Positions 17,983 through 53,832 of a DNA stretch of 64,000 nucleotides are shown one piece after another. Source of the DNA: Ricinus communis (lineage: Eukaryota; Streptophyta; Magnoliopsida; Malpighiales; Euphorbiaceae); NCBI RefSeq assembly GCF_019578655.1, contig NC_063262.1, forward strand, positions 18,607,582 through 18,671,581, in the 5' to 3' direction. Position numbers and translations under genes: made by a program. Position 1 is the first letter of the stretch. The number at the start of each line of letters is the position of its first letter. The notes below the pieces were generated by a model that saw only the letters and a list, made by a program, of their open reading frames with translations, made no database searches and had not been told where the DNA came from.

Positions 17983-19736
17983 CAAGCCATCAGGTGGTAT
18001 ATTCTACTACCGTCTCATCCCGAGTCAACATGCAATCACAATAGCCATAATGCAGAAAATAAAACATATATAAATAGTAATTAAATAAATACTTAAAATA
18101 TTAATCCTTTAATTAGAGCTATTACGTAAAATCTTAGCATGACACACGTAAATAGATATATGACTTTAACTCACTGTTCTGACAACCTCCTAGCTCTGCT
18201 CCGATGTCTCGGGTGGAGTGAGCCGAACTGACGGATTTATCTAATCATGAAAACAATTCGATCAATAAATATAAAACCCTTGGCAATTAACCCTTAGCCT
18301 AGACTCCTAGAATTGCTGCTTAAGAATCTCGACTCGGAAGAATTCTATTGAAATTTGGCAAAACCTCTCCTAATTTACGGATATCTAACAGCTCCAGGAC
18401 CTGCCAGAAAACATTCCAAATATACAGTGATTAATTAACGGGAGTCGGGCCACCAAAATTGCAATAATTTTCTCGACTCCGCAACACAACACAAAACACG
18501 ATTATTGGTAGGCGGTCCGATAAATAATTATTTTAACTAACAATCCTCACAATATTTTTCTAATGCTCAACACAATTAAATAAATACATAATTTCTTGAT
18601 CACTCAGTCGACTCACCTCCAGCCACCGGAGTCCGATCGACGATTCGAGCACGCCTACAGACTCGAGACAATGCGCTCACAATGATTCCAGCTTTTGATC
18701 CTCTGATCCGACCCCCGAACATATAGAGATATTTATGGACGATCTCAGTCGTCGATTTTCAAATAGAGTCCGATCGTCACGAAACCGGTGCCATTGGAAA
18801 GATTGAGCTGAGGAGAGTCCGGATATGCCCTATGATCATCCATCCCCCGCCGGGACTCGCTAGAAAAGTCCAAAATTTTGGCTACCCCTAATTTTTTCAC
18901 CTCGCCGAATCTTGCAATCTCGGTAGTCTCAAGGGGTAGCGATGGTTGGAAAATGAAGTCCAGAAGTTGCTGATCATTTCGAGCCTAAGAACGCCGCAAA
19001 TGGTTGCCGGAAACTCCATGATTGGCGGCAAGAAGAAATATGTCGTTTCTAGCCATTTCCGCCACCTGCCAATGCTTCCGACTCTGACCATAGCGTCATT
19101 AAGCTCGTCGATGACAATGACACCCTCGACCACCATGCATGGCTTTTCCGCATGGACGAGCCTCTGCGCCATCATTGTGCCAACTCCTCCTCCTCCTCCT
19201 CTTCTTCTTCTTCTTCTTCTTCTCTTTCCTTTGTTTTCTTTCCTTCCTTATTGACTTTTGGTCCCTGAACTTTTCTTCTTTACCAGTTAGTCCCTCAACT
19301 TTTTAATTTCTAACAACTTCGCCTTGTAAAATTTCTGATTAACCCCTCAAATTTTCTTTAGCTTTTCAATTAAGCCCCTAACTATTTAATTTGGGTCAAA
19401 TTACAACTATTAAAAATATAAAATTACTTATTCACCCTTGCTTTAAATGTAAAATTACTAAAATACCCTTACTGACACATTTAATTACAAATTTTCGTTT
19501 AAAACCCCAAATTAAAGCAATTATATTTTTAATCCTTATTTCAAAATTAATTGTTAATTTAATCCTAACACTTAATTAACTTAATTAATCAATTTACTAA
19601 CTATTTCCCAATTAAATCAACACCATTAACTAATTAAAATTCATCATTCCTAAATAAATTCTTTTATAAAAATATTATTTATTAATTCTTTCATAACTCT
19701 CAAATATAGAATTTCATTCATATATTCGTATCGGGG
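17983..19736 (-). repeat. Chromovirus (Tekay-like) LTR remnant
   Basis: On the minus strand the sequence has the character of Tekay/Del-type LTRs: phrases such as GAGGGACTAACTGGTAAAG and TTCAGGGACCAAAAGTCAAT, then a GC-rich section (18600-19200), then an AT-rich tail. The frames at 18897-19254 fall within this LTR and I do not regard them as genes. The family assignment rests on general resemblance, so it is moderate. Confidence 0.5.
19184..19225. repeat. Pyrimidine microsatellite (CTC)n/(CTT)n
   Basis: About six CTC repeats merge into about eight CTT repeats on the plus strand, within the chromovirus-like LTR. It is a simple repeat. Confidence 0.95.
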
Positions 19737-19741
19737 GAAAA
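19737..19741. repeat. Target-site duplication GAAAA, left copy
   Basis: GAAAA directly precedes the first LTR (TGATATGAATC) of the twin non-autonomous element. The matching copy is at 25025-25029, after the fourth LTR. The short A-rich sequence and its resemblance to the element's own polypurine tract end (GGGGGAA) call for some caution. Confidence 0.7.
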
Positions 19742-20563
19742 TGATATGAATCAAGGCTGCCATGAGATTCCATTGCGAAGGCATGCATCAAGAAGTCCAA
19801 AATGGAAATGCAACTCATGCATGAAAACAAGAGTCCAATCTTATAATTAAGCATTCAGTCCATTTTGAAGAATAAAAGCCATTTGGCCATGATTAGGCTT
19901 TTGGGCTTAATTCATATTTATATGGGGTTCTTATCTTTTGAGGTTTTAGCATAAGTAATTGTTTTAGTTTATCTTTATTTAATTATGAATTATTTTATTA
20001 GGTGTGAGTTATATGTATTGTGTGTGGAGTTACAAAATGGATGCACATGATTAGTTGTCATTTGGGAGTTACAAAATGAGCGCCATCAATGTAAAAACAA
20101 CCACTTTTAATGAGTTTTAAGGGGAATCAAAGGGAAAAACGAGGGAAAGCTCAAAAGACATCTATTTAGGTTTCTTTGTCTTATTTTGGCTATAAATATC
20201 AAAGCCAAATTCATTTGTAAAATATAGAATTTTGAATGATAATCTTTGTTTGCTCTTTGTGAGTGTTTTTGCTTAAGTTCTTGCATGAACTTTGAACTCA
20301 TCAAACTATTTTTAGTTTGTGGCATTCTCTAACCAAAATCTTATGTTTGATTCTTAACTTATCAAATCATACATGGTTTGTGGCGTTTGGAGTTGAATTC
20401 AAGTGCTAATTTTATTGTTGGAACTAGTTTTTCCTAACTTCACTTGAGGAGATCCTTGGGTTTTGGAATCATCTTGATTGGAGGGTGTTTTCTTACATTC
20501 CATATGTATAATAACTCATTGGTTATTGGGGTGTATGGTTGCTAAGATGATAATTTCCTATCA
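19742..20563 (+). repeat. LTR 1 of twin element
   Basis: It begins TGATATGAATCAAGG and ends TTTCCTATCA. Three more copies (21561-22382, 22386-23207, 24206-25024) match it closely along the whole length. A GGCTATAAATATCAAAG promoter-like block lies at about 20190-20206. Confidence 0.95.
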
Positions 20564-20565
20564 TT

Positions 20566-20577
20566 TGATATCAGAGC
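20566..20577 (+). other. Primer-binding site, copy 1 (one mismatch)
   Basis: TGATATCAGAGC differs by one transition from TGGTATCAGAGC, the common plant primer site complementary to the 3' end of initiator tRNA-Met. The intact version is in copy 2 at 23210-23221. It is separated from the LTR end by TT. Confidence 0.85.
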
Positions 20578-20872
20578 TTGCTTCAAGTTGAGGTTTGCTT
20601 ATCTTTGTGTCTTGTGTGTTATTAAAGTTTCTCATCTTCTTTACTCTTTTTTTGTGTCCAATTCTTCTTGTTTCAATTTTGTCCTTCTAAGTACTCTTTG
20701 TTTTAAAGTTTACACCTTTGTGTTCATTAAATAAATTTTTGTTGTCCCTTCTTGTTAATCTCTTTATGTTATTTTTTTTTTCTTCAAATTCTGTATCATA
20801 TTTTTTGTTCTTACCTTCAAAGTCTTTGTGGTTCTTTATTTTCATCTTTATTTCACCTTAGACATAAAAAAA

Positions 20873-21537
20873 ATGTTTCATGAAGCTGAGTTCATTAGAC
20901 AATGTCGAAATCTTCGTTATCAATCTTATGATAAGATGTGGGGTCAAAGAAATGATCGTTATGAAGACTGTAGACAAAATTTTCATTCTTCTAAATCTAA
21001 ACCTAAGAGGTTAGATAGACAACCAAGTCAAGTTTTTGTTGATGAATTGTCCAAGGAGAACAAATCTTTAAGAATCAGTGTTGAAGCATTTAAGCATGAG
21101 CTTGAAGAGTTTAAGATGTTGACTAATAGCTTTCTTAAGCATCTCAAAGATAAAGCCGATTTTAAGCAATCATTAAAGAATAACATCAATGATGTAAGGA
21201 GGTAAATTGCTCTACTGAAGTCAATGTAGATTTTGAAGACTTGATAATTGGAGATGGCAAGAAAGACAATGACTTGCTACCTTTGGATGAATTCAATAAT
21301 GAAGAGTTTGTCGTTGATGGAGAGGTAATGGTTCAGTTAGTGAAGAATGAAAAAGTTTTACTTGATAAAACTGAGACTTTTGAGCATGTTAAATTTATTG
21401 GTACTAAAAATATTTTTTGTTCTAAAGTTCCTCTAATCACTATTGTGAAGGAATTGCAGGTTGATGATAGTATTTCATTACCATTTGAGATTATATATTT
21501 ATTTTCTTCGCAATATTTGGGCAAAATTCGAGGATGA
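20873..21537 (+). pseudogene. Unidentified ORF of the non-autonomous element, copy 1 (one frameshift)
   Basis: The start at 20873 is chosen because MFHEAEF follows an A-run in both copies. The frame runs MFHEAEFIRQCRNLRYQSYD...SKENKSLRISVEAFKHELEE...FLKHLKDKADFKQ and stops at 21203 after DVRR. In copy 2 the same place reads DVKEVNCSTE and continues, so copy 1 has a small frameshift near 21195. Reading resumes at 21241 (DGKKDNDLLPLDEFNNEEFV) and ends ...LGKIRG at 21537. The undamaged frame would be roughly 220 residues, charged, with a coiled-coil-like middle. I do not recognise the family. Confidence 0.6.
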
Positions 21538-21548
21538 ATTTTATTTCA

Positions 21549-21560
21549 AGAAAGGGGGAA
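21549..21560 (+). other. Polypurine tract, copy 1
   Basis: AGAAAGGGGGAA lies directly before LTR 2, the expected place for plus-strand priming. The identical tract is at 24194-24205 in copy 2. Confidence 0.8.
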
Positions 21561-22382
21561 TGATATGAATCAAGGCTACCATGAGATTCCATTGCGAAGG
21601 CATGCATCAAAAAGTCCAAAATGGAAATGCAACTCATGCATGAAAACAAGAGTCCAATCTTATAATGAAGCATTCAGTCCATTTTGAAGAATAAAAGCCA
21701 TTTGGCCATGATTAGGCTTTTGGGCTTAATTCATATTTATATGGGTTCTTATCTTTTCGGGTTTTAGCTTAAGTAATTATTTTAGTTTATCTTTATTTAA
21801 TTAAGGATTATTTTATTAGGTGTTAGTTATATGTATTGTGTGTGGAGTTACAAAATGGATGCACATGATTAGTTGTCATTTGGGAGTTATAAAATGAGTG
21901 CTATCAATGTAAAAACAGCCACTTTTAATGAGTTTGAAGGGGAATCAAAAGGAAAAACGTGGGAAAGCTCAAAAGACATCCCATTTAGGTTTCTTTTTCT
22001 TATTTTGGCTATAAATATCAAAGCCAAATTCATTTGTAAAATATAGAATTTTGAATGATAATCTTTGTTTGCTCTTTGTGAGTGTTTTTGCTTAAGTTCT
22101 TGCATGAACTTTGAACTTATCAAACTATTTTTAGTTTGTGGCATTCTCTAACCAAAATCTTGTGTTTGATTCTTAACTTATCAAATCATACTTGGTTTGT
22201 GGCGTTTGGAGTTGAATTCAAGTGCTAGTTTTATTGTTGGAACTAGTTTTTCCTAACTTCACTTGAGGAGATCCTTGGGTTTTGGAATCATCTTGATTGG
22301 AGGGTGTTTTCTTGCATTCCATATGTATCATAACTCATTAGTTATTAGGGTGTATGGTTGTTAAGATGATGATTTCCTATCA
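21561..22382 (+). repeat. LTR 2 of twin element
   Basis: This is the 3' LTR of copy 1, 822 bp, TGATATG...CCTATCA. It is separated from LTR 3 by TAA only. Confidence 0.95.
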
Positions 22383-22385
22383 TAA
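22383..22385. other. LTR-LTR junction (TAA)
   Basis: The sequence across the junction is CCTATCA-TAA-TGATATG. The element's own edges are CA-TT before the primer site and AA-TG after the polypurine tract, so blunt joining of unprocessed cDNA ends predicts CA-TTAA-TG. One base fewer is seen. Confidence 0.9.
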
Positions 22386-23207
22386 TGATATGAATCAAGG
22401 CTGCCATGAGATTCCATTATGAAGGCATGAATCAAAAAGTCTAAAATTGAAATGCAACTCATGCATGAAAACAATAGTCTAATTTTATAATGAAGCATTC
22501 CGTCCATTTTGAAGAATAGAAGCCATTTGGCCATGATTATGCTTTTGGGCTTAATTCATATTTATATGGGTTCTTATCTTTTGGAGTTTTAGCTTAAGTA
22601 ATTGTTTTAGTTTATCTTTATTTAATTAAGAATTATTTTTTTAGGTGTGAGTTATATGTATTATGTGTGGAGTTACAAAATGGATGCACATGATTAGTTG
22701 TCATTTGGGAGTTACAAATTGAGTGTCATCAATGTAAAAATAGGCACTTTTAATGAGTTTTAAGGGGAATCAAAGGGAAAAACTTCGGAAAGCTCAAAAG
22801 ACATCCCATTTAGGTTTCTTTGTCTTGTTTTGGCTATAAATATCAAAGCCAAATTCATTTGTAAAATATAGAATTATGAATGATAATTTTTGTTTGCTTT
22901 TTGTGACTGTTTTTGCTTAAGTTCTTGCATGAACTTTGAACTTATCAAACTATTTTTAGTTTGTGGCGTTCTCTAACCAAAATCTTGTGTTTGATTCTTA
23001 ACTTATCAAATCATACTTGGTTTATGGCATTTGGAGTTGGATTCAAGTGCTAGTTTCATTGTTGGAACTAGTTTTCCCTAACTTCACTTGAGGAGATCCT
23101 TGGGTTTTGGAATCATCTTGATTGGAGGGTTTTTTCTTGCATTCCATATGCATCATAACTCATTAGTTATTGGGGTGTATGGTTGCTAAGATGATGATTT
23201 CCTAACA
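22386..23207 (+). repeat. LTR 3 of twin element
   Basis: This is the 5' LTR of copy 2, 822 bp. It ends CCTAACA where the others have CCTATCA or CCTACCA. Confidence 0.95.
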
Positions 23208-23209
23208 TT

Positions 23210-23221
23210 TGGTATCAGAGC
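23210..23221 (+). other. Primer-binding site, copy 2
   Basis: TGGTATCAGAGC is the standard plant initiator tRNA-Met primer complement, two bases after the LTR end. Confidence 0.9.
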
Positions 23222-23517
23222 TTGCTTTCAGATGAGGTTTGCTTATCTTTGTGTTTTGTGTGTTATTAAAGTTTCTCATCTTCTTTACTCTTTTTTTATG
23301 CCGAATTCTTCTTGTTTCAATTTTGTCCTTCTAAGTACTCTTTGTTTTAAGGTTTACATCTTTGTGTTCATTAAATAAATTTTTGTTGTCCCTTCTTGTT
23401 AATCTCTTTATGTTGTTTTTTTTCTTCAAATTCCGTATCATATTTTTTGTTCTTTCCTTCAAACGTCTTTGTGGTTCTTTATTTTCATCTTTATTTCACC
23501 TTAGACATAAAAAGAAA

Positions 23518-24081
23518 ATGTTTCATGAAGCTGAGTTCATTAGAAAATGTCGAAATCTTCGTTATCAATCTTTTGATAAGATGTGGGGTCAAAGAAATGA
23601 TCGTTATGAAGGCTGTAGATAAAATTTTTATTCTTCTAAATCTAAACCTAAGAGGTTAGATAGACAACCAAGTCAAGTTTTTATTGATGAATTGTCCAAG
23701 GAGAACAAATCTTTAAGAATCGGTCTTGAAGCATTTAAGCATGAGCTTGAAGAGTTTAAGATGTTGACTAATAGCTTTCTTAAGCATCTTAAAGATAAAG
23801 CCGAATTTAAGCAATCATTAAAGACTAATATTGATGATGTAAAGGAGGTAAATTGTTCTACTGAAGTCAATGTAGATTTTGAAGACTTGATAATTGGAGA
23901 TGGCAAGAAAGACAATGACTTGCTACCTTTGGATGAATTCAATAATGAAGAGTTTGTCGCTGATGGAGAGGCAATGGTTCAGTTAGTGAAGAATGAAAGA
24001 GTTTTGCTTGATAAAACTGAGACTTTTGAGCATGTTGATTTTATTGGACTAAAAATATTTTTTGTTCTAAAGTTCCTCTAA
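23518..24081 (+). pseudogene. Unidentified ORF of the non-autonomous element, copy 2 (stop plus frameshift)
   Basis: It begins MFHEAEFIRKCRNLRYQSFD. A CAA-to-TAA change relative to copy 1 creates a stop after YEGCR (23620). The frame continues as SKENKSLRIGLEAFKHELEE...DVKEVNCSTEVNVDFEDLII until a one-base loss near 24048 (FIGLK against FIGTKN in copy 1) ends it at 24081. The lesions differ from those in copy 1, so both copies descend from a source with a longer intact frame. The product is unknown. Confidence 0.6.
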
Positions 24082-24205
24082 TCACTATTGTGAAGGAATT
24101 GCAGGTTGATGATAGCATTCCATTACCGTTTGAGATTATATGTTTATTTTGTTTGCAATATTTGGGCAAAATTCGAGGATGAGTTTTATTTCAAGAAAGG
24201 GGGAA

Positions 24206-25024
24206 TGATATGAATCAAGGCTGCCATGAGATTCCATTGCGAAGGCATGCATCAAAAAGTCTAAAATGGATGCAACTCATGCATGAAAGCAAGACTCCAA
24301 TCTTATAATGAAGCATTTAGTCCATTTTGAAGAATAAAAGCCATTTGGTCATGATTAGGCTTTTGGGCTTAATTCATATTTTTATGGGTTCTTATCTTTT
24401 AGGATTTTAGCTTAAGTAATTGTTTTAGTTTATCTTTATTTAATTAAGGATTATTTTATTAGGTGTGAGTTATATGTATTGTGTGTGGAGTTACAAAATG
24501 GATGCACATGATTAGTTGTTATTTGGGAGTTACAAAATGAGTGCCATCAATGTAAAAATAGCCACTTTTAATGAGTTTTAAGGGGAATCAAAGGAAAAAA
24601 CGTGGGAAAGCTCAAAAGACATCCATTTAGGTTTCTTTGTCTTGTTTTGGCTATAAATATCAAAGCCAAATTCATTTGTAAAATATAGACTTATGAATGA
24701 TAATATTTGTTTGCTCTTTATGAGTGTTTTTGCTTAAGTTCTTGCATGAACTTTGAACTTATCAAACTATTTTTAGTTTGTGGCGTTCTCTAACCAAAAT
24801 CTTGTGTTTGATTCTTAACTTATCAAATCATACTTGGTTTGTGGCATTTGGAGTTGGATTCAAGTACTAGTTTCATTGTTGGAACTAGCTTTTCCTAACT
24901 TTACTTGAGGAGATCCTTGGGTTTGGGAATCATCTTGATTGGAGGGTGTTTTCTTGCATTCCATATATATCATAACTCATTAGTTATTGAGGCGTATGGT
25001 TGCTAAGATGATGATTTCCTACCA
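24206..25024 (+). repeat. LTR 4 of twin element
   Basis: This is the 3' LTR of copy 2, 819 bp, TGATATG...CCTACCA, followed by GAAAA (25025-25029), the right target duplication. Confidence 0.95.
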
Positions 25025-25029
25025 GAAAA

Positions 25030-29137: not shown

Positions 29138-30545
29138 ATGTCTAGCAGAAAAATAAGATCAGGTGATTCATCAACTCAAAATCTCTACAACTTGAGATCA
29201 GCTGTTAAAAAGGTAGAAGGAGACCAAGAAGTGGAGGGTGAATTTATACCTCCAAGAGAATAAGAATTTGAAGAAAAGCTAGAACAAGAATTTGAAGGAG
29301 AAGTTGAAATAATGGCTAATGACCAAAGAGAAGTTGTAGCTCAAAGGCAAATGCTATGAAGGATTATGCTTGTCCCATAATTGGTAACACTACTTCATAC
29401 ATTATTCTAGGTGATGCATCTAGAAATTATGAACTTAAGAACATTCATTTTAATATGCTTCATTCATTCTATGATATGCCTAGTGAAGATGCATTAACAT
29501 TTATTAGGGAATTTTATGCTATAGTTTATATATTCCCATTATTTGGACTAAATAAAGACCAATTAAGGATGAGATGTTTTCCTTACTCATTAAAAGAGAA
29601 AGCAAAGGCTTGGTTAATGACCTTGTCTCCTAATTCTTTGAGAACTTGGGATGAAGTTTATAAAAAATTTATGGGTAAATTTTTACTCACATCAAAAAAC
29701 CAAAGAATTAAGGGCTGAAATTTCTAGCTTTTATCAAAAGGATATACTAAATTCTTTCATGAAGCATGGGATCACTTTAAATCACTTTTACTACAATACC
29801 CATACCATATATACCCACTTCTTGTGACCAACCAATCATTTTATGACGGTCTCACACAATAATATCAATGTATAGTTGATAATGCAGCTATATGTTAGAA
29901 AAAACTGCTGATGAGGTTTATGATATCTTTGAGATGTTAGGAGCCAATTCACAACAAAAGATTGTAAGAACAAAAAAGTAGAAGTGAATGAAATTTTGTC
30001 TAATAATGAGATGGCTATGCAAATAGTTGAATTAACGAAACAAGTTAGGATACTTGCTTCAACTAAAAATGTACAAAGCAATGAGGTATATGATATATAT
30101 GGTGTTTATGGTCATGTGTTAATGTTTACTTATCTTATGAGACTTATGCAAGAAATAATTATGAACATGTTAATTTGATAGAATCTTATCAGCCTAGGAA
30201 ACCTGGGAATAATCCATACTCCAACACTTACAATCTAGGATGAAGGAACCATCCAAATTTTTCTTAGAGAAATAATGATCAAAACTCACCACAAATACTG
30301 AGGAACCAAAACTAACCCCAGTATCAGAATCAAGAGCCTCAATACCCAAGGAATCAAAACTCTCCATTCTCTAATCAAGGATAAGCCCCTCAAAGAAAAT
30401 CAAGTTTAGAGGAAACACTCCAATCTTTTATGACAGCTGCCCATGATATAATGGAGAGGAATGAACAGAAAACTAATTCCATAAAAGCTTTAATGAAGCG
30501 CTTGGAATAGCAAATGCAATTCTCCAACAACAATTACCACCTAAG
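29138..30545 (+). pseudogene. Athila gag remnant
   Basis: A start ATG at 29138 gives MSSRKIRSGDSSTQNLYNLR. A stop and a shift near 29355 lead into the capsid-like core: ASRNYELKNIHFNMLHSFYD then LRMRCFPYSLKEKAKAWLMT and LSPNSLRTWDEVYKKFMGKF (29410-29690). The C-terminal nucleic-acid-binding region, rich in N and P (PRKPGNNPYSNTYNLG), is at 30195-30245. Frames change repeatedly. Gag would form the particle around the element RNA. Confidence 0.85.
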
Positions 30546-35388: not shown

Positions 35389-36733
35389 TGATGTGTGCTA
35401 CTTGTGTTAGCTACAGTCTAAGGCAGTGTATCTATCGATGCAGTCTAGCACTAATAGCGAGTATTAAGGTCGTATTCCTCGGGAAAGTGAAAGCCCAGAG
35501 TTACTCCTTTGTTCTTTATTATATTAACCTAAAATGAATGATGAATACTTTCTAAACTAACTAATAGCTACAATCTAAGTTCTAAGGGAGATGCAAGAGT
35601 AATTAATAACTAAAATAACTAAGGCAAGAGAGCAAACCCAAAGGGAACCTAAACTAGTTGGCAATCAAACAAAAGATAAAGGACTGTTGAATCTAATTAT
35701 GCTACCCGTGGACGAATTCTTAACCGAATTCGGTTTCTCTCTCGAGATAACCGAATTCCTAAATCTAATAACCTAAAGTTGGAATCTCTTTCTAACGATT
35801 GATTCTTAAATTAGCATTAAGCTTTAATCCGCCTCTATTAAACTTTGTTAATTCTTAATTCGACTAGTTAATTATCCTTATCTCTAAGCGGTTATTAACC
35901 AGTTCTTGCTATTCAAAATTCCAAATGCCAAATGGACTTCTCAATCACACAAAGCAATCTAAACACACAATTCACAACGTCTCATGAATAATGATTATCT
36001 TATTAATACTGAAAGCAAGAAGAATACAAAACTAACCCAAACAATCCAACAATATAATATCAAGCCAACATAGTAAAGAAATCCCAATGGATTTAATCAA
36101 TCTAGCTAATCATGTTCATTATCAAAAATACAAGAATTCAATTACAACAATAAGCAAAGGTAGAGAAAACCCGATTACACCCTTGGATGAGAGTAACAGC
36201 CCCAAATCCTTTTGCTCTAATTGAATCGATTCTCGTTCCTCTTGCTCGATTTGAAAATCAATCAACGAACCTCGACCAATCCTCGATCTTTGAAGGGAAT
36301 CCGATTGAAACCTTGATCCAAGTCTCATTTTCCCTTAGTTTCAGCTCAAAAAACCTTTAAGGAGAGAAAATTTAGGGTTTGGGACATTCTCCCCCGCTTT
36401 CTTTTCTTTCTTCCTCTCTTCTTTCTTTTAACTAATTCCCCCTGTAGGCACGGCCATGTTCCTGGCCGTGTTGGGAACACGGTTTGGTGTTCCTGGCTGT
36501 GTTACTCTCTGTGGCCATGCTCCATAAGATCTTCTTCTTCTTTGATGTTTGACACGGCCGTGTTGGTGCCCGTGTTAGGAACACGGCCAGTGTTGAAACC
36601 AACACGGCCATGTTCAGCTTCCTCATGCTCGTACTTAGCTTGTTTCGGCAGCTTTGACGTCCAATTCACATCCAAATGTCTATAAATTCAATCTTAAAAA
36701 CTCCATTTAGATTTGTGTATTTTACGCACATCA
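35389..36733 (-). repeat. Athila LTR A' (3' LTR)
   Basis: 1345 bp against 1442 bp in the right copy. Most of the gap is an 89-bp deletion relative to 51631-51719, bounded by CCAATT repeats. The U3 (36450-36610) has an array of CACGGCC/GGCCGTG motifs. The minus frames in this LTR (36122-36328, 36432-36626) also exist in the right LTR, are short, and are not taken as genes. Confidence 0.95.
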
Positions 36734-44792: not shown

Positions 44793-46384
44793 TCACCCTT
44801 CCTGTGCATACAAAGCCAGGTCAACTCGTTGCTCACTATCCAACGAGTTACAATGGTATCGCTTTAGCCGATGGCCGTTCACTTTGAAGTCTCCCTTCTC
44901 TGGATGATGCAACTCTACCACTCCATATGGAAAGACTTGTCTGATCTGAAATGGTCCAGACCAACGACTCTGCAGCTTTTCGGGAAACAGATGAAGGCCA
45001 GAGTTGTAAAGCAACACTCGATCCCCAACATGAAACTCCTTAGGCTCACGAATCCTTTGATTATGCCATTTCTTAGTCCTTGCTTTGTAAGTTGAGGAGT
45101 TTTCGTACGCCTGCTGGCGCCACTTATCTAGCTCACTCACCGCTGCTCCTTCCTGCGAATCAATATCAAAGTTACAAGTTCTAAGGGCCCAAAGTGCCCT
45201 ATGCTCTAACTTAACAGTGCAAATGACATGACTTTCCATAAACAAGGCGATAGGGCGTAAAACCTATAGATGTCCTAAAAAGCGGTCCTAAATGCCCATA
45301 ATGCATCATCTAACTTAAGAGTCCAGTCCTTCCTACCGGTACTCTCTCTAAAATACGTTTAATACCCTTATTAGTTACCTCAACCGCCCACCTTGCTAGT
45401 CCTGGGGTGATAGGGAGTAGAGAACCGATGAGTAACTCCGTACTGCTTAAGTACTTTCTCTAATTGGGTGTTGCAAAAATGTATTCCTCTATTACTAATA
45501 AGCACCCTAGGTATGCCAAACCTAGCAAACAATCGCTTAAGGAACCTGTAGACAACCCTGGCATCATCAATCTGACGACTGCTTCGTGCCCACTTAGAGA
45601 AATATTCAACAGTAACCATAATGTACTTATTACCATATGAAGAGGGAAAGGGTCCCATGAAGTCGATGCCTAAAACATCAAAAATCTCAACGACTTGCAC
45701 ACCAGTTTGGGGCATCTCATTACGAGAAGAGATATTACCTACGCGCTGGCAAGCGTCACAAACCTGAACAAATTTCCGTGCGTCTTGGAAGAGCGTAGGC
45801 CAATAGAATCCTGCCTCTAGCACCTTCCTCGTTGTATGGTTTGCTGCTTGATGACCTCCAATGGGTCCCTCATGGCAGTGCTTCAATATTTGGAGAGTCT
45901 CTTCGCCATATACACAAAGGCGAATCACCTGATCTGCACATACTTTAAACAAAAAGGGATCTTCCCAAATGTAGTATTTCAAATCGACGAAGAATTTCTT
46001 CTTTTGTTGATAAGTCATACCCTTTGGTAGAACCCTAGCAACCAAATAGTTAGCGTAATCTGAAAACCAGGGAGTATCAGTGTATACCTGAGTGACATAT
46101 AAATGCTCTTCTGGAAATCGATCGTCTGTGGCCGTCTCATTAAGTGCATCCAAGTGAGGTTTTTCCAATCTCGATAAATGGTCTGCTGCCAGATTCTCTG
46201 CACCCTTCTTATCCTTGATCTCGACATCAAATTCCTGTAATAAAAGAATCCACCGAATCAATCTCGGTTTCGCATCATTTTTCAGGAATAAGTACCTCAA
46301 CGCCGAATGGTCCGTGAAGACGATGGTTTTGGAGAGAACGAGGTATGATCTAAACTTGTCGAAGGCGTAAACAATAGCCAACAA
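44793..46384 (-). pseudogene. Athila RNase H end and integrase remnant
   Basis: Minus strand. The long frame 45380-46384 starts in RNase H ([32 protein letters not shown]). The integrase zinc domain follows ([29 protein letters not shown]), then the core with [19 protein letters not shown]. The second catalytic acid is replaced: [10 protein letters not shown], where an aspartate is expected in place of N. The frame shifts before the third acid (near 45385). The C-terminal domain is at 44793-45245 (FHVGDRVLLYNSGLHLFPEK). Confidence 0.9.
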
Positions 46385-48429: not shown

Positions 48430-50181
48430 ACTTCCTCTTGTTGCTCAAAATCTCCTTTAAAAACTTGGCGTACTTCAGCATCTGCAAAATTGCCTCAACA
48501 AAAGGTAAGTTAATTTTCAACTACTTAAATAAGTTAAGAAACTTACTATATTGCTTGTCCACCTTATCATGCCTCAACCTTGCAGGATATGGAACCGAGG
48601 GCTGATGCTCCCGTACAGGGCTCTTTTGCATGTCTTCTTTCTTTTTCTCATTCTCTACCACCTCAAGGTCTGGTCCTTCCTTAGCTGGCTCAACCTGCAC
48701 AATTGTATTATCCTTATCAGCTAAAGGCGAAGAACCAGTCAATTTCTTACCTGAACGTAAGGTGATAGCCTTGCAATGCTCCCCTCGTGTTTGACTCGAA
48801 GTGCTGTGGAGGAGCGATCCGAAGGTCTAAGCATCTTAGAAATTTGGCCAATTTGAGTCTCCAAGTTCTGAATCAAGGCCTGCTGATTCCTAAGTGCACT
48901 ATCAGTCTGCTAGAGTCTCGTTTCCGTAGATGTCACAAACTTCATCATAAGCTCCTCTAAATTTGACTTCTTTTCTTGTGGAGGAGGAGCTTGTGCGTGC
49001 CCAATCGGTTATTGCTTTGTGGTCGTTGATGAAGTCTTTGAAAACTGGCCGGACCACGGGCATTATTGTTCCTCCAACTAAAATTGGGATGATTGCGCCA
49101 TCCAGGGTTGTATGTATTCTTTGTAAGGGTTATTCTGCTGCCTTGGGGCATTCCCATATAATCAACTGTTCAACATCGGAAGACATAGCGAATTAGATGG
49201 AAAAGTAGTAGAGGATGAAGCAAACATACCTCCGTAGTACGCCTACATCGTAATGCGGGTCATCATAAAACTCGCAGCCAATGTTCACTGCATGAACCGG
49301 CATCTGGAGGTAGTCGATCTTCTTGGCTAGAAGCTCCACTTGAGCTGCCAAGGCTACTGTAGAGTTCACTTGGTTGACCACTCCCTGTCTTTCTAGTCAG
49401 CTCCTAGAGAATTGCCACTGATAGTTGTTCATGGCCATTTCTCTATCAAGTTCGAGGCCCAGGGCGTCGTTTAGCGCCCCACCTGCTGCAGCATCCACCA
49501 TCTGCCTCATTGCAAGGTTCAACCCGCTGTAGAAGGTCTAAACCTGCATCCATACTGGCAATCCGTGATGTGGGCAGCATCTCAAAAGATCTTTAAATCT
49601 CTCCCATGCATCGTACATGCTTTCATCATCAAACTGCAGAAAAGAAGATATGTCATTTCTAAGTTTAGCAGTTTTAGCGGGAGGAAAATGCTTATATAAA
49701 TATTTTTAGCCAACGCCCTCCAGGTAGTAATTGTTTGTTGTGGAAGGGATTGCAACCATCTCTTAGTTTTGTCCCTCAAGGAAAATGGAAACAATCTCAG
49801 CCGAATGGCGTCATCGGTTGTCCCGTTTATCTTAAATGTGTAACAAATCTCTAAAAAATTAGAGATATGTGCATTAGGATCCTCGCTGGGTAATCCTCCA
49901 AACTGCACGCTCTACTGGATCATCTGGATCATATTGGCTTTTATTTCAAAATTGTTGGCCGCTACAGCAGGTCTTACTATACTAGTTTTCATCCCATCCA
50001 ATGATGGTCGAGTAAACTCGTACATCGTCCTCTGATCCTCATCGGCCTGGGGATTGAGGTTCTCCATCGCGTCAGTTCCTTGAACTGAATCAGACTCCGT
50101 CCTGCCTCAAACGTCCGAATAATCGAGAGAGCTCCGGTCGATAAAGGGTGATATGGGATCAGGGTTAGAGCTCCTAGTCAT
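48430..50181 (-). pseudogene. Athila gag remnant
   Basis: Minus strand. A plausible start at 50181-50179 gives MTRSSNPDPISPFIDRSSLD. The core at 49582-49908 reads [20 protein letters not shown], then [20 protein letters not shown] and [14 protein letters not shown]. The C-terminal N/P-rich part (YNPGWRNHPNFSWRNNNARG) is at 49050-49140, and QISKMLRPSDRSST near 48800. Stops at several sites and frame changes are present. Confidence 0.88.
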
Positions 50182-50350: not shown

Positions 50351-51792
50351 TGATGTGTGCTACTTGTGTTAGCTACAGTCTAAGGCAGTGTACCTATCGA
50401 TGCAGTCTAGCATTAATGGTGAGTATTAAGGTCGTATTCCTCGGGAAAGTGAAAGCCCAAAGTTACTCCTTTGTTCTTTGTTATATTAACCTAAAATGAA
50501 TGATGAATACTTTCTAAACTAACTAATAGCTACAATCTAAGTTCTAAGGGAGATGCAAGAGTAATTAATAACTAAAATAACTAAGGCGAGAGAGCAAACC
50601 CACAGGGAACCTAAACTAGTTGGCAATCAAACAAAAGATAAAGGACTGTTGAATCTAATTATGCTACCCGTGGATGAATTCTTAACCGAATTTGATTTCT
50701 CTCTCAAGATAACCGAATTCCTAAATCTAATAACCTAAAGTTGGAATCTCTTCCTAACGATTGATTCTTAAATTAGCATTAAGCTTTAATCCGCCTCTAT
50801 TAAGCTTTGTTAATTCTTAATTCGGCTAGTTAATTATTCTTATCTCAAAGCGATTATTAACCAGTTCTTGCTATTCAAAATTTCAAATGCCAAATGGACT
50901 TCTCAATCACACAAAGCAATCTAAACACACAATTCACAACGTCTCATGAATAATGATAATCTTATTAATACTGAAAGCAAGAAGAATACAAAACTAACCC
51001 AAACAATCCAACAATATAATATCAAGCCAATATAGTAAAGAAATCCTAATGGATTTAATCAATCTAGCTAATCATGTTCATTATCAAAATACACAAGAAT
51101 TCAATTACAACAATAAGCAAAGGTAGAGAAAACCCGATTACATCCTTGGATAAGAGTAAATAGCCCCAAATCCTTTTGCTCCAATTGAATCGATTCATGT
51201 TCCTCTTGCTCGATTTGAAAATCAATCAACGAACCTCGCCCAATCTTCGATCTTTGAAGGGAGTCCGATTGAAACCTTGATCCAAGTCTCCTTTTCCCTT
51301 GGTTTCAGCTCAAAAAACCTTTAGGGAGAGAAAATTTAGGGTTTGGGACGTTCTCCCCCGCTCTCTTTTCTTTCTTCCTCTCTTCTTTCTTTTAACTAAT
51401 TCCCCCTGTCACCGCCAACACGACTGTGTTCCTGGCCGTGTTGGGAACACGGTTTGGTGTTCCTGGCCGTGTTACTCTCTGTGGCCGTGCTCCATAAGAT
51501 CTTCTTCTTCTTTGATGTTTGACACGGCCGTGTTAGTGCCCATGTTGGGAACACGGCTAGTGTTGAAACCAACACGGCCATGTTCAGCTTCCTCATGCTC
51601 GTACTTAGCTTGTTTCGGCAGCTTTGATGTCCAATTATGCTCTAATTCTTCCCTTTATCATCCTTTAACTTCTTTTAGACCTAATGCACACAAACAGATG
51701 CATAGGGTGAGTGTTGGGACCAATTCACATCCAAATGTCTATAAAATCAATCTTAAAAACCCCATTTAGATGTGTGTATTTTACGCACATCA
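50351..51792 (-). repeat. Athila LTR A (5' LTR)
   Basis: 1442 bp, minus orientation, TGATGTGCG...GCACACATCA, pairing with 35389-36733. Its U3 (51410-51600) has the CACGGCC/GGCCGTG array. The plus 156-codon frame at 51299-51769 falls inside this LTR, is not open in the sister LTR, and is rejected as a gene. CTAAC follows at 51793-51797. Confidence 0.95.
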
Positions 51793-53055: not shown

Positions 53056-53832
53056 AGCTCTCACTCAAACCTTTCTCAGAAGATCAAGGTCGGTTGCTGG
53101 TGCAACCTACAAGGGGATCCCACCAGTTAGCTTCCTTGAACCTTATGAGTTTACTCGCCTATTGACTTGCACACATGTTAGACTCCTTAGTCCGTGTTTC
53201 AAGACGACCGAATAGAGAGCTCGCAGGTGCCGAGGCATGTTGTGATGGCGCTCGCTATAGTCCGCAATCACTGTGATGGAGTCTCTACAGGAGTGTCAAA
53301 AGCCTATACTTGGTCCGCCCTTGCGATCTGCGTTGATTCGCCCCCTAAGCCGATCGATGAACTAGCTTTTGGCCATTCCACATACGATCGAGGTGCATCG
53401 CCGACCTCCATCTGCTTCCTTCCTAAAAATTTCAAGCACTTTCTGACTCTCCTTTTAAAGTTATTTTCATCTTTCCCTTAAAGTAGTTTTTGCTACGGTT
53501 TCTCACTCGTATTTAGCCTTATTGGGAATTTACTACCTGATTTGGGCTACATTTCAAATAATTTAACTCGTAGACAACGCCTAACGGTTCGACAAGGTTC
53601 AAGCACAACTAGGCTCTCACCCTCTCTAGCGCCCCCTTTCAATGGGCTTAGACCCAGTCCACCATTGAGGAAGCTTCTCCATACTACAATCTAAATACTG
53701 AAGGGGCTCGATTCTCAAGCTAGGCTATTCCCGGTTCGCTCGTTATTACTAAAGGAATCCTAGTAAGTTTCTTTTTCTTCACTTATTGATATGCTTAAAC
53801 TCAATGCGCAATCCCACCTGACCTAGGGTCAC
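53056..53832 (-). pseudogene. 25S rRNA 5' portion, degenerate nuclear rDNA fragment
   Basis: The plus strand reads as the complement of the plant 25S rRNA 5' end. Examples are GTCCGTGTTTCAAGACG (53190-53206), TTTCAAGCACTTTCTGACTC, CCCGTTTAGCC-like CGTATTTAGCCTT, ATTCTCAAGC and TTATTGATATGCTTAAACTC (53784-53803), in the correct order and spacing over ~780 bp. Very many C/G positions have become T/A, the pattern of methylation-driven decay, so this is an old pseudogene. It lies inside the antisense ORF. Confidence 0.93.

Follow-up and report, generated by a model that had tools for sequence, protein, structure and literature searches.

A tandem retrotransposon pair in Ricinus communis that probably entered the chromosome as end-joined cDNA

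Junctions between two long terminal repeats (LTRs) are often viewed as dead-end products. We analysed a stretch of 64,000 nucleotides from Ricinus communis (the window; C7:18607582-18671581) in which a chromosomal junction of this kind separates two complete copies of a small LTR element that share a single target duplication, and which probably records two cDNAs that were joined end to end and integrated once. The closest described joints are extrachromosomal. In the extrachromosomal circular DNA of the carrot elements Alex1 and Alex3, small indels at the U5-U3 joint were taken as the mark of end joining (available text of PMC9324142), and in spumavirus circles 36 of 40 junction clones kept blunt, untrimmed ends as a palindrome (available text of PMC1180852). 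In both, as in the window, a U5 end is joined to a U3 end; the window joint differs in being chromosomal and in lying between complete copies within one duplication. The same part of the carrot study uses reads across two-LTR junctions as a mark of mobilised extrachromosomal copies, and the accessible part of PMC10959353 uses genomic reads as a control for inserted LTR-LTR junctions.

Tandem LTR elements have also been described in plant chromosomes, and their origin is disputed, with unit insertion and recombination as the candidates, a question left open in the available part of PMC11899658. The template-switching complexes of Triticeae, rice and maize (PMC1950507) resemble the window pair in having two internal regions within one 5-bp duplication, for which a single integration was inferred, but they have one shared central LTR and alike outer LTRs, whereas the window pair has four LTRs, matched by copy, and a joint of the untrimmed type. 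Tandem LTR retrotransposons of rice and other plants (PMC11899658) and tandemly arrayed terminal-repeat retrotransposons in miniature (TA-TRIMs; PMC4717578, PMC4528315) are likewise tandem, some within one duplication; in the accessible portions of these sources the central LTR of the described elements is shared, unlike in the window, and the joints of five four-LTR Wukong elements are given no description. Integrase-independent recombination of cDNA at resident copies, covered in the available part of the review PMC12786077, could also make tandems. Recombination of linear cDNA or of a one-LTR circle would, we infer, leave a shared central LTR, and the LTR pairing in the window is unlike that of a crossover in the body. 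We found no chromosomal LTR-TTAA-LTR dimer inside one duplication in the open-access literature searched, outside which most subscription papers lie.

The window dimer (19737-25029; C7:18627318-18632610) has the order LTR1-body A-LTR2-TAA-LTR3-body B-LTR4, head to tail, with LTRs of 819-822 bp (n=4) and about 2.64 kb per copy (Table 1). This is the layout of four ~820-bp LTRs that the original prediction, made from the sequence alone, had described, including GAAAA directly outside the first and last LTR and the lack of a duplication in the middle, where only TAA separates LTR2 from LTR3. A 5-bp match between two places in the window has a chance of 0.0017-0.0018, and we rejected a chance match of the two GAAAA flanks on that basis. 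The candidate empty site GGGGGAAAATTAAGTGAC had no match at up to three mismatches within the window, and a joint pattern with a 4-base spacer gave five matches there, each with two or three mismatches, vs a chance mean of 3.1.

Both copies bear the hallmarks of LTR retrotransposons: LTRs with TG starts and CA ends, a primer binding site, which we take to be of the initiator-Met type, and a polypurine tract. Their bodies differ at 41/994 positions. Two body open reading frames (ORFs) gave no Pfam match at E 0.001, a single homology search with the body A ORF gave zero matches, and a tRNA scan and a viral contig pattern search yielded no lead. The copies are classed as a small, non-autonomous LTR retrotransposon family. 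Each copy exceeds the <1,500 bp size criterion for TRIMs given in the accessible part of PMC4717578, and the two complete central LTRs with TAA between them set the pair apart from tandem LTR retrotransposons and TA-TRIMs with a shared LTR. The body ORF is disrupted differently in the two copies, by a frame change before 21205 in copy A and by a stop near 23620 in copy B.

The expected form of the joint can be read from the family itself. After the 5' LTR the sequence runs CA-TT-TGGTATCAGAGC (copy A has TGATATC instead), and before each 3' LTR of the window it runs AAGAAAGGGGGAA-TG, so that the bases lying outside TG and CA in untrimmed cDNA would be TT and AA, as originally predicted. We examined how the family's ends normally look in solo LTRs, namely the 6 of 30 sampled loci that have one LTR and no body match. 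All six are enclosed by 5-bp duplications (GATCA, AATGC, CAAAG, TGCAC, ACTTG, CATCT), the same length as GAAAA, and none has TT or AA left at its ends; the LTR flanked by CATCT ends in TA, not CA. Integrated ends are therefore normally trimmed to TG and CA by the family's integrase, and a joint made before trimming is expected to read CA-TTAA-TG. The window joint reads CA-TAA-TG, one base short, as had been noted, so TT and AA are not both complete there. The left flank GGGGGAAAA (19733-19741) resembles the element's own polypurine tract GGGGGAA, probably by coincidence; a left end that retained polypurine-tract bases is less likely, since it would take both the insertion of AA and a coincidental 5-bp match at the right.

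If end joining left this joint, similar scars may be expected elsewhere, and they were found. The genome (315.5 Mb, 140 contigs) was searched exactly for eight letters of the LTR end, 0-12 letters of any kind and nine letters of the LTR start. A reversed control pattern gave 11 matches (2 forward, 9 reverse), so the flanks of every match to the pattern itself were inspected: five of the seven are LTR-LTR joints, and the other two, on C3 and C10, have no LTR match around them. Since an exact pattern misses diverged ends, five is a lower bound. All five joints found have spacers within one edit of TTAA (chance about 3e-6 for random spacers of equal lengths), and the predicted TTAA is intact at two of the four outside the window, on C2 and C4.

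These joints bear directly on whether a second element was simply inserted into the target duplication beside the first, with the inner GAAAA later decaying to TAA. Tandem transposon insertions are reportedly frequent in Drosophila, according to work cited in the available part of PMC11899658, and the LTR divergences of the window copies are unequal. Adjacent insertion, however, would have to hit one exact base in the matching orientation, and the 5 bp between the copies would then have to undergo both a substitution and a 2-bp loss. All five joints centre on TTAA, whereas the six solo-LTR duplications are six different 5-mers, and a dimer on C4 has ACTTG outside and TTAA inside. We strongly disfavour adjacent insertion and consider it very improbable, in keeping with the earlier view that these are not two separate insertions.

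The four window LTRs also pair in a telling way. Eight informative substitution sites group LTR1 with LTR2 and LTR3 with LTR4 (1+2/3+4), one supports 1+3/2+4 and none supports 1+4/2+3; an approximately unbiased (AU) test excludes the two other trees at 0.05 (p 0.016, 0.018). The alignment that the original prediction had called for thus pairs the LTRs by copy at 8/9 sites. Compared with other sampled LTRs, sites 57 and 655 have states private to LTR3 and LTR4, and site 672 a state private to LTR1 and LTR2 (LTR2 numbering; 36, 45 and 45 LTRs lettered at the three sites). The comparison sample was chosen by similarity to LTR2 (40/1036 candidates scored, with 48 matches listed, giving 30 loci), and a wide tree of 39/51 sampled LTRs, with support given as Shimodaira-Hasegawa-like approximate likelihood ratio/bootstrap, joins LTR3 and LTR4 at 83.8/95 and LTR1 and LTR2 at 88.3/44. 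Pairing by copy implies that each copy completed its own reverse transcription before joining, and we read the two cDNAs as having probably derived from two RNAs about 1% different.

Pairing by copy counts against tandem duplication, and likewise against a dimeric RNA or the template-switch model in the literature. Either a dimeric RNA or a switch of template in the course of reverse transcription, as Sabot and Schulman proposed for plant complex insertions within one 5-bp duplication (PMC1950507), would be expected to give alike outer LTRs and one shared central LTR; in the window no site pairs LTR1 with LTR4, and the central LTRs number two, which makes this the remotest of the origins we weighed. 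Recombination between copies is the explanation for tandem elements in the accessible parts of PMC4528315 and PMC4558846, but crossing-over leaves one shared central LTR, and a tandem duplication predicts 1+3/2+4, which has one site against eight. Nor would a false assembly join be expected to produce outer duplications that match, or a joint of a kind seen at four further loci. Unequal crossing-over, which the original prediction had also set aside, tandem duplication and assembly artefact are together highly unlikely.

We consider it likely that the window pair arose from two linear cDNAs that were end-joined with the loss of one base and integrated once. Two full-length linear cDNAs, from two slightly different RNAs of the family, would have been joined by host end joining, U5 end to U3 end, before trimming (CATT + AATG giving CATAATG). 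Integrase would then have trimmed the outer ends to TG and CA, inserted the pair once and duplicated GAAAA. In a variant with the same sequence outcome, each cDNA would contribute a single end to integrase at a shared target, and the two ends left free would be joined later. What we observe is the layout with its lone outer duplication, LTRs paired by copy and joints of untrimmed type at other loci; which enzymes acted, in what order the cDNAs were joined and integrated, and that the missing base went at joining and not afterwards, are what we infer. The window pair has one outer duplication, the outer ends are trimmed and no duplication lies inside, as expected for the insertion of a single dimer; the C4 composite described below is alike, with ACTTG.

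A further route was overlooked in the original prediction. The same end joining could have produced a two-LTR circle that then recombined by homology with an element resident at GAAAA, and this gives the identical layout, joint and single outer duplication. The C4 dimer, with its TTAA joint, shows exactly the LTR pairing that this route produces with a crossover in the body, and the unequal divergence of the window LTRs (29 vs 45 differences) leans to two ages. The 1+2/3+4 pairing of the window, however, spans LTR positions 57 to 672. Taken at face value, it confines a circle crossover to the opening 56 bp or closing 150 bp of an LTR and keeps it out of the body; by our arithmetic, these stretches make up 11% of the homologous length (about 206 positions in about 1,820). 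The case is softened by positions 57-356, where one site backs this pairing and one opposes it. We disfavour circle recombination for the window and regard it as improbable, going by the LTR alignments. End joining of untrimmed cDNA ends, the step common to the linear-dimer and circle routes and the core of the original prediction, is very likely, given the pairing by copy and the other joints.

Several observations weigh against insertion of a linear dimer. The window joint deviates by one base from the prediction. Seven of the eight pairing sites fall in alignment positions 357-673, positions 1-356 alone and 674-823 alone leave the window tree undecided, and one indel column supports 1+4/2+3. 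In the wide tree, bootstrap is just 44 for LTR1 with LTR2 and 36 for the four window LTRs together. The unequal divergence (29/821 for LTR1-LTR2, 45/819 for LTR3-LTR4; p 0.06-0.08, not significant) leans weakly to unequal ages of the copies; with LTR positions 1-160 dropped, a cut chosen post hoc, the values are 26 and 31. Of the 24 LTR3-only changes, 10 lie in positions 34-155, and since scan p values were 0.06, 0.19 and 0.25 (windows of 130, 160 and 200) we claim no conversion tract in LTR3. Finally, the other complete dimer, on C4, lacks the 1+2/3+4 pairing of the window.

This second complete dimer, LTR-body-LTR-TTAA-LTR-body-LTR (loci L040 and L035), has 15 informative sites for 1+4/2+3, 2 for 1+2/3+4 and 0 for 1+3/2+4 (AU p <0.001 for the alternatives). 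Its LTR1 and LTR4 (71.3/89) and its LTR2 and LTR3 (81.9/97) lie in separate clades of the tree, with 24/778 and 25/819 differences within the respective pairs. The last LTR joins, with one shared base, a 142-bp piece from the U3 end of another LTR, in inverted orientation, and the composite of dimer and piece is enclosed by 5-bp ACTTG duplications, with TTAA inside. The inverted piece differs from LTR1-LTR4 at 3/104, 5/142, 4/142 and 5/142 positions; at site 79, the sole pair-separating site, it has the LTR1/LTR4 state, and the overall differences favour neither lineage. The pairing fits a two-LTR circle that would have recombined within the body of a further copy, either ahead of integration or shortly afterwards; the route of PMC12786077, as far as its available text goes, accords with this dimer if the donor was such a circle. 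It is also possible that an older dimer transposed as a unit, given the paired outer LTRs. Comparison of the C4 bodies with 13 others by quarters was mixed and did not place a crossover.

The remaining joints differ in kind. On C9, the 851-bp 3' LTR of a Ty3/gypsy element runs into a small-family 5' LTR that is truncated, and the joint unites two different cDNAs, which favours the joining of linear cDNAs. The integrase ORF of the C9 element matches PF00665 at 28.4 bits, under the curated cut-off of 32.6, and its ORF matches the Ty3 Gag-Pol chain 7q5b at E 2.2e-45. The 3' LTR of this element matches the small-family LTR over roughly its final 450-540 bp, at 87-96% within the terminal 450, and likewise ends in CA, while the U3 regions align at just 44-52%; this suggests that the element is the autonomous partner of the small family. 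At C4:18271448 there is an LTR pair without body matches, differing at 54/814 positions, with flanks ACGCG and ACACA that agree at 3/5; neither LTR is the other's nearest relative, by a small margin for one of them, a further point in favour of joined cDNAs. The C2 locus has undergone rearrangement: the LTR that follows the joint differs by just 0.4% (over 556) from an upstream truncated LTR, and an inverted piece comes after it.

A hand count of what follows 12 3' LTRs at the 30 sampled loci gave a head-to-tail LTR in 2 (one being the window's own), a primer site (a shared LTR) in 1, an inverted piece in 1 and other sequence in 8; L002, a 5' LTR, was left out, and L012 and L028 have an identical flank. 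With the sample drawn by similarity to LTR2, these counts are not a genome rate. Inverted LTR-LTR joins were seen at L039 (2975-4422), L036 (4060-5321) and L033 (3357-3545), where the break points share 2, 4 and 0 bases, as would be expected for end joining of broken ends; by eye, no matching outer duplication was seen at the L039 and L036 joins. A single copy at L034 (4349-6987; C5:17930848-17933486, minus) has CAGGTGCT-TAA before its 5' LTR and CAGGTGCT directly after its 3' LTR, and is possibly an insertion that retained untrimmed U3-end bases, with an 8-bp repeat.

Table 1. Components of the window dimer and LTR-LTR joints of the family in the genome
Feature	Position	Strand	Details
Target duplication GAAAA, left copy	19737..19741	.	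GGGG just before
LTR1	19742..20563	+	822 bp, TGATATG...CCTATCA
Internal region A	20564..21560	+	TT, primer binding site TGATATCAGAGC, degraded ORF, polypurine tract AAGAAAGGGGG, AA
LTR2	21561..22382	+	822 bp; pairs with LTR1, 29 differences/821
Joint spacer TAA, LTR2/LTR3 (window)	22383..22385	.	predicted TTAA minus one base; centre of interrupted palindrome TATCAT-A-ATGATA
LTR3	22386..23207	+	822 bp, end CCTAACA
Internal region B	23208..24205	+	TT, primer binding site TGGTATCAGAGC, degraded ORF, polypurine tract, AA
LTR4	24206..25024	+	819 bp, end CCTACCA; pairs with LTR3, 45 differences/819
Target duplication GAAAA, right copy	25025..25029	.
Joint spacer TTAA	C2:17817150
Joint spacer TTAA	C4:13836407
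Joint spacer TTTAA	C4:18271448
Joint spacer TTGA	C9:19316208	minus

Elsewhere in the window, 53192-53808 (minus strand) holds a nuclear large-subunit rRNA fragment (Rfam RF02543, 223 bits, model positions 24-664 of 3401), and plant snoR71 matches lie at 49560-49666 (plus strand, 76.1 bits) and 29705-29814 (minus strand, 42.6 bits). These snoRNA matches and the LTR-element domains point to plant DNA. Two direct repeats of 1.28 kb, 95.4% alike (35389-36666 and 50351-51636), have between them a minus-strand ORF at 45383-46384 with RNase H and integrase domains; repeats and enclosed ORF probably belong to a single large LTR element about 16 kb long.

We lean slightly towards the broader view that, in this plant, end-joined cDNA has repeatedly served as a substrate for entry into the chromosome, in the form of linear dimers (including that of the gypsy partner with a small element), dimers with inverted end fragments and two-LTR circles. 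Each would leave a TTAA scar between LTRs, and the pairing at each scar would give the route, 1+2/3+4 for a linear dimer and 1+4/2+3 for a circle. Linear-dimer insertion, circle recombination and template switching can be told apart simply, by how the LTRs pair. If such joints sit in chromosomes, a read that spans two LTRs does not have to come from an extrachromosomal copy. A chromosomal record of these joints would suggest that end-joined cDNA is still insertable, and LTR divergence would date the events.

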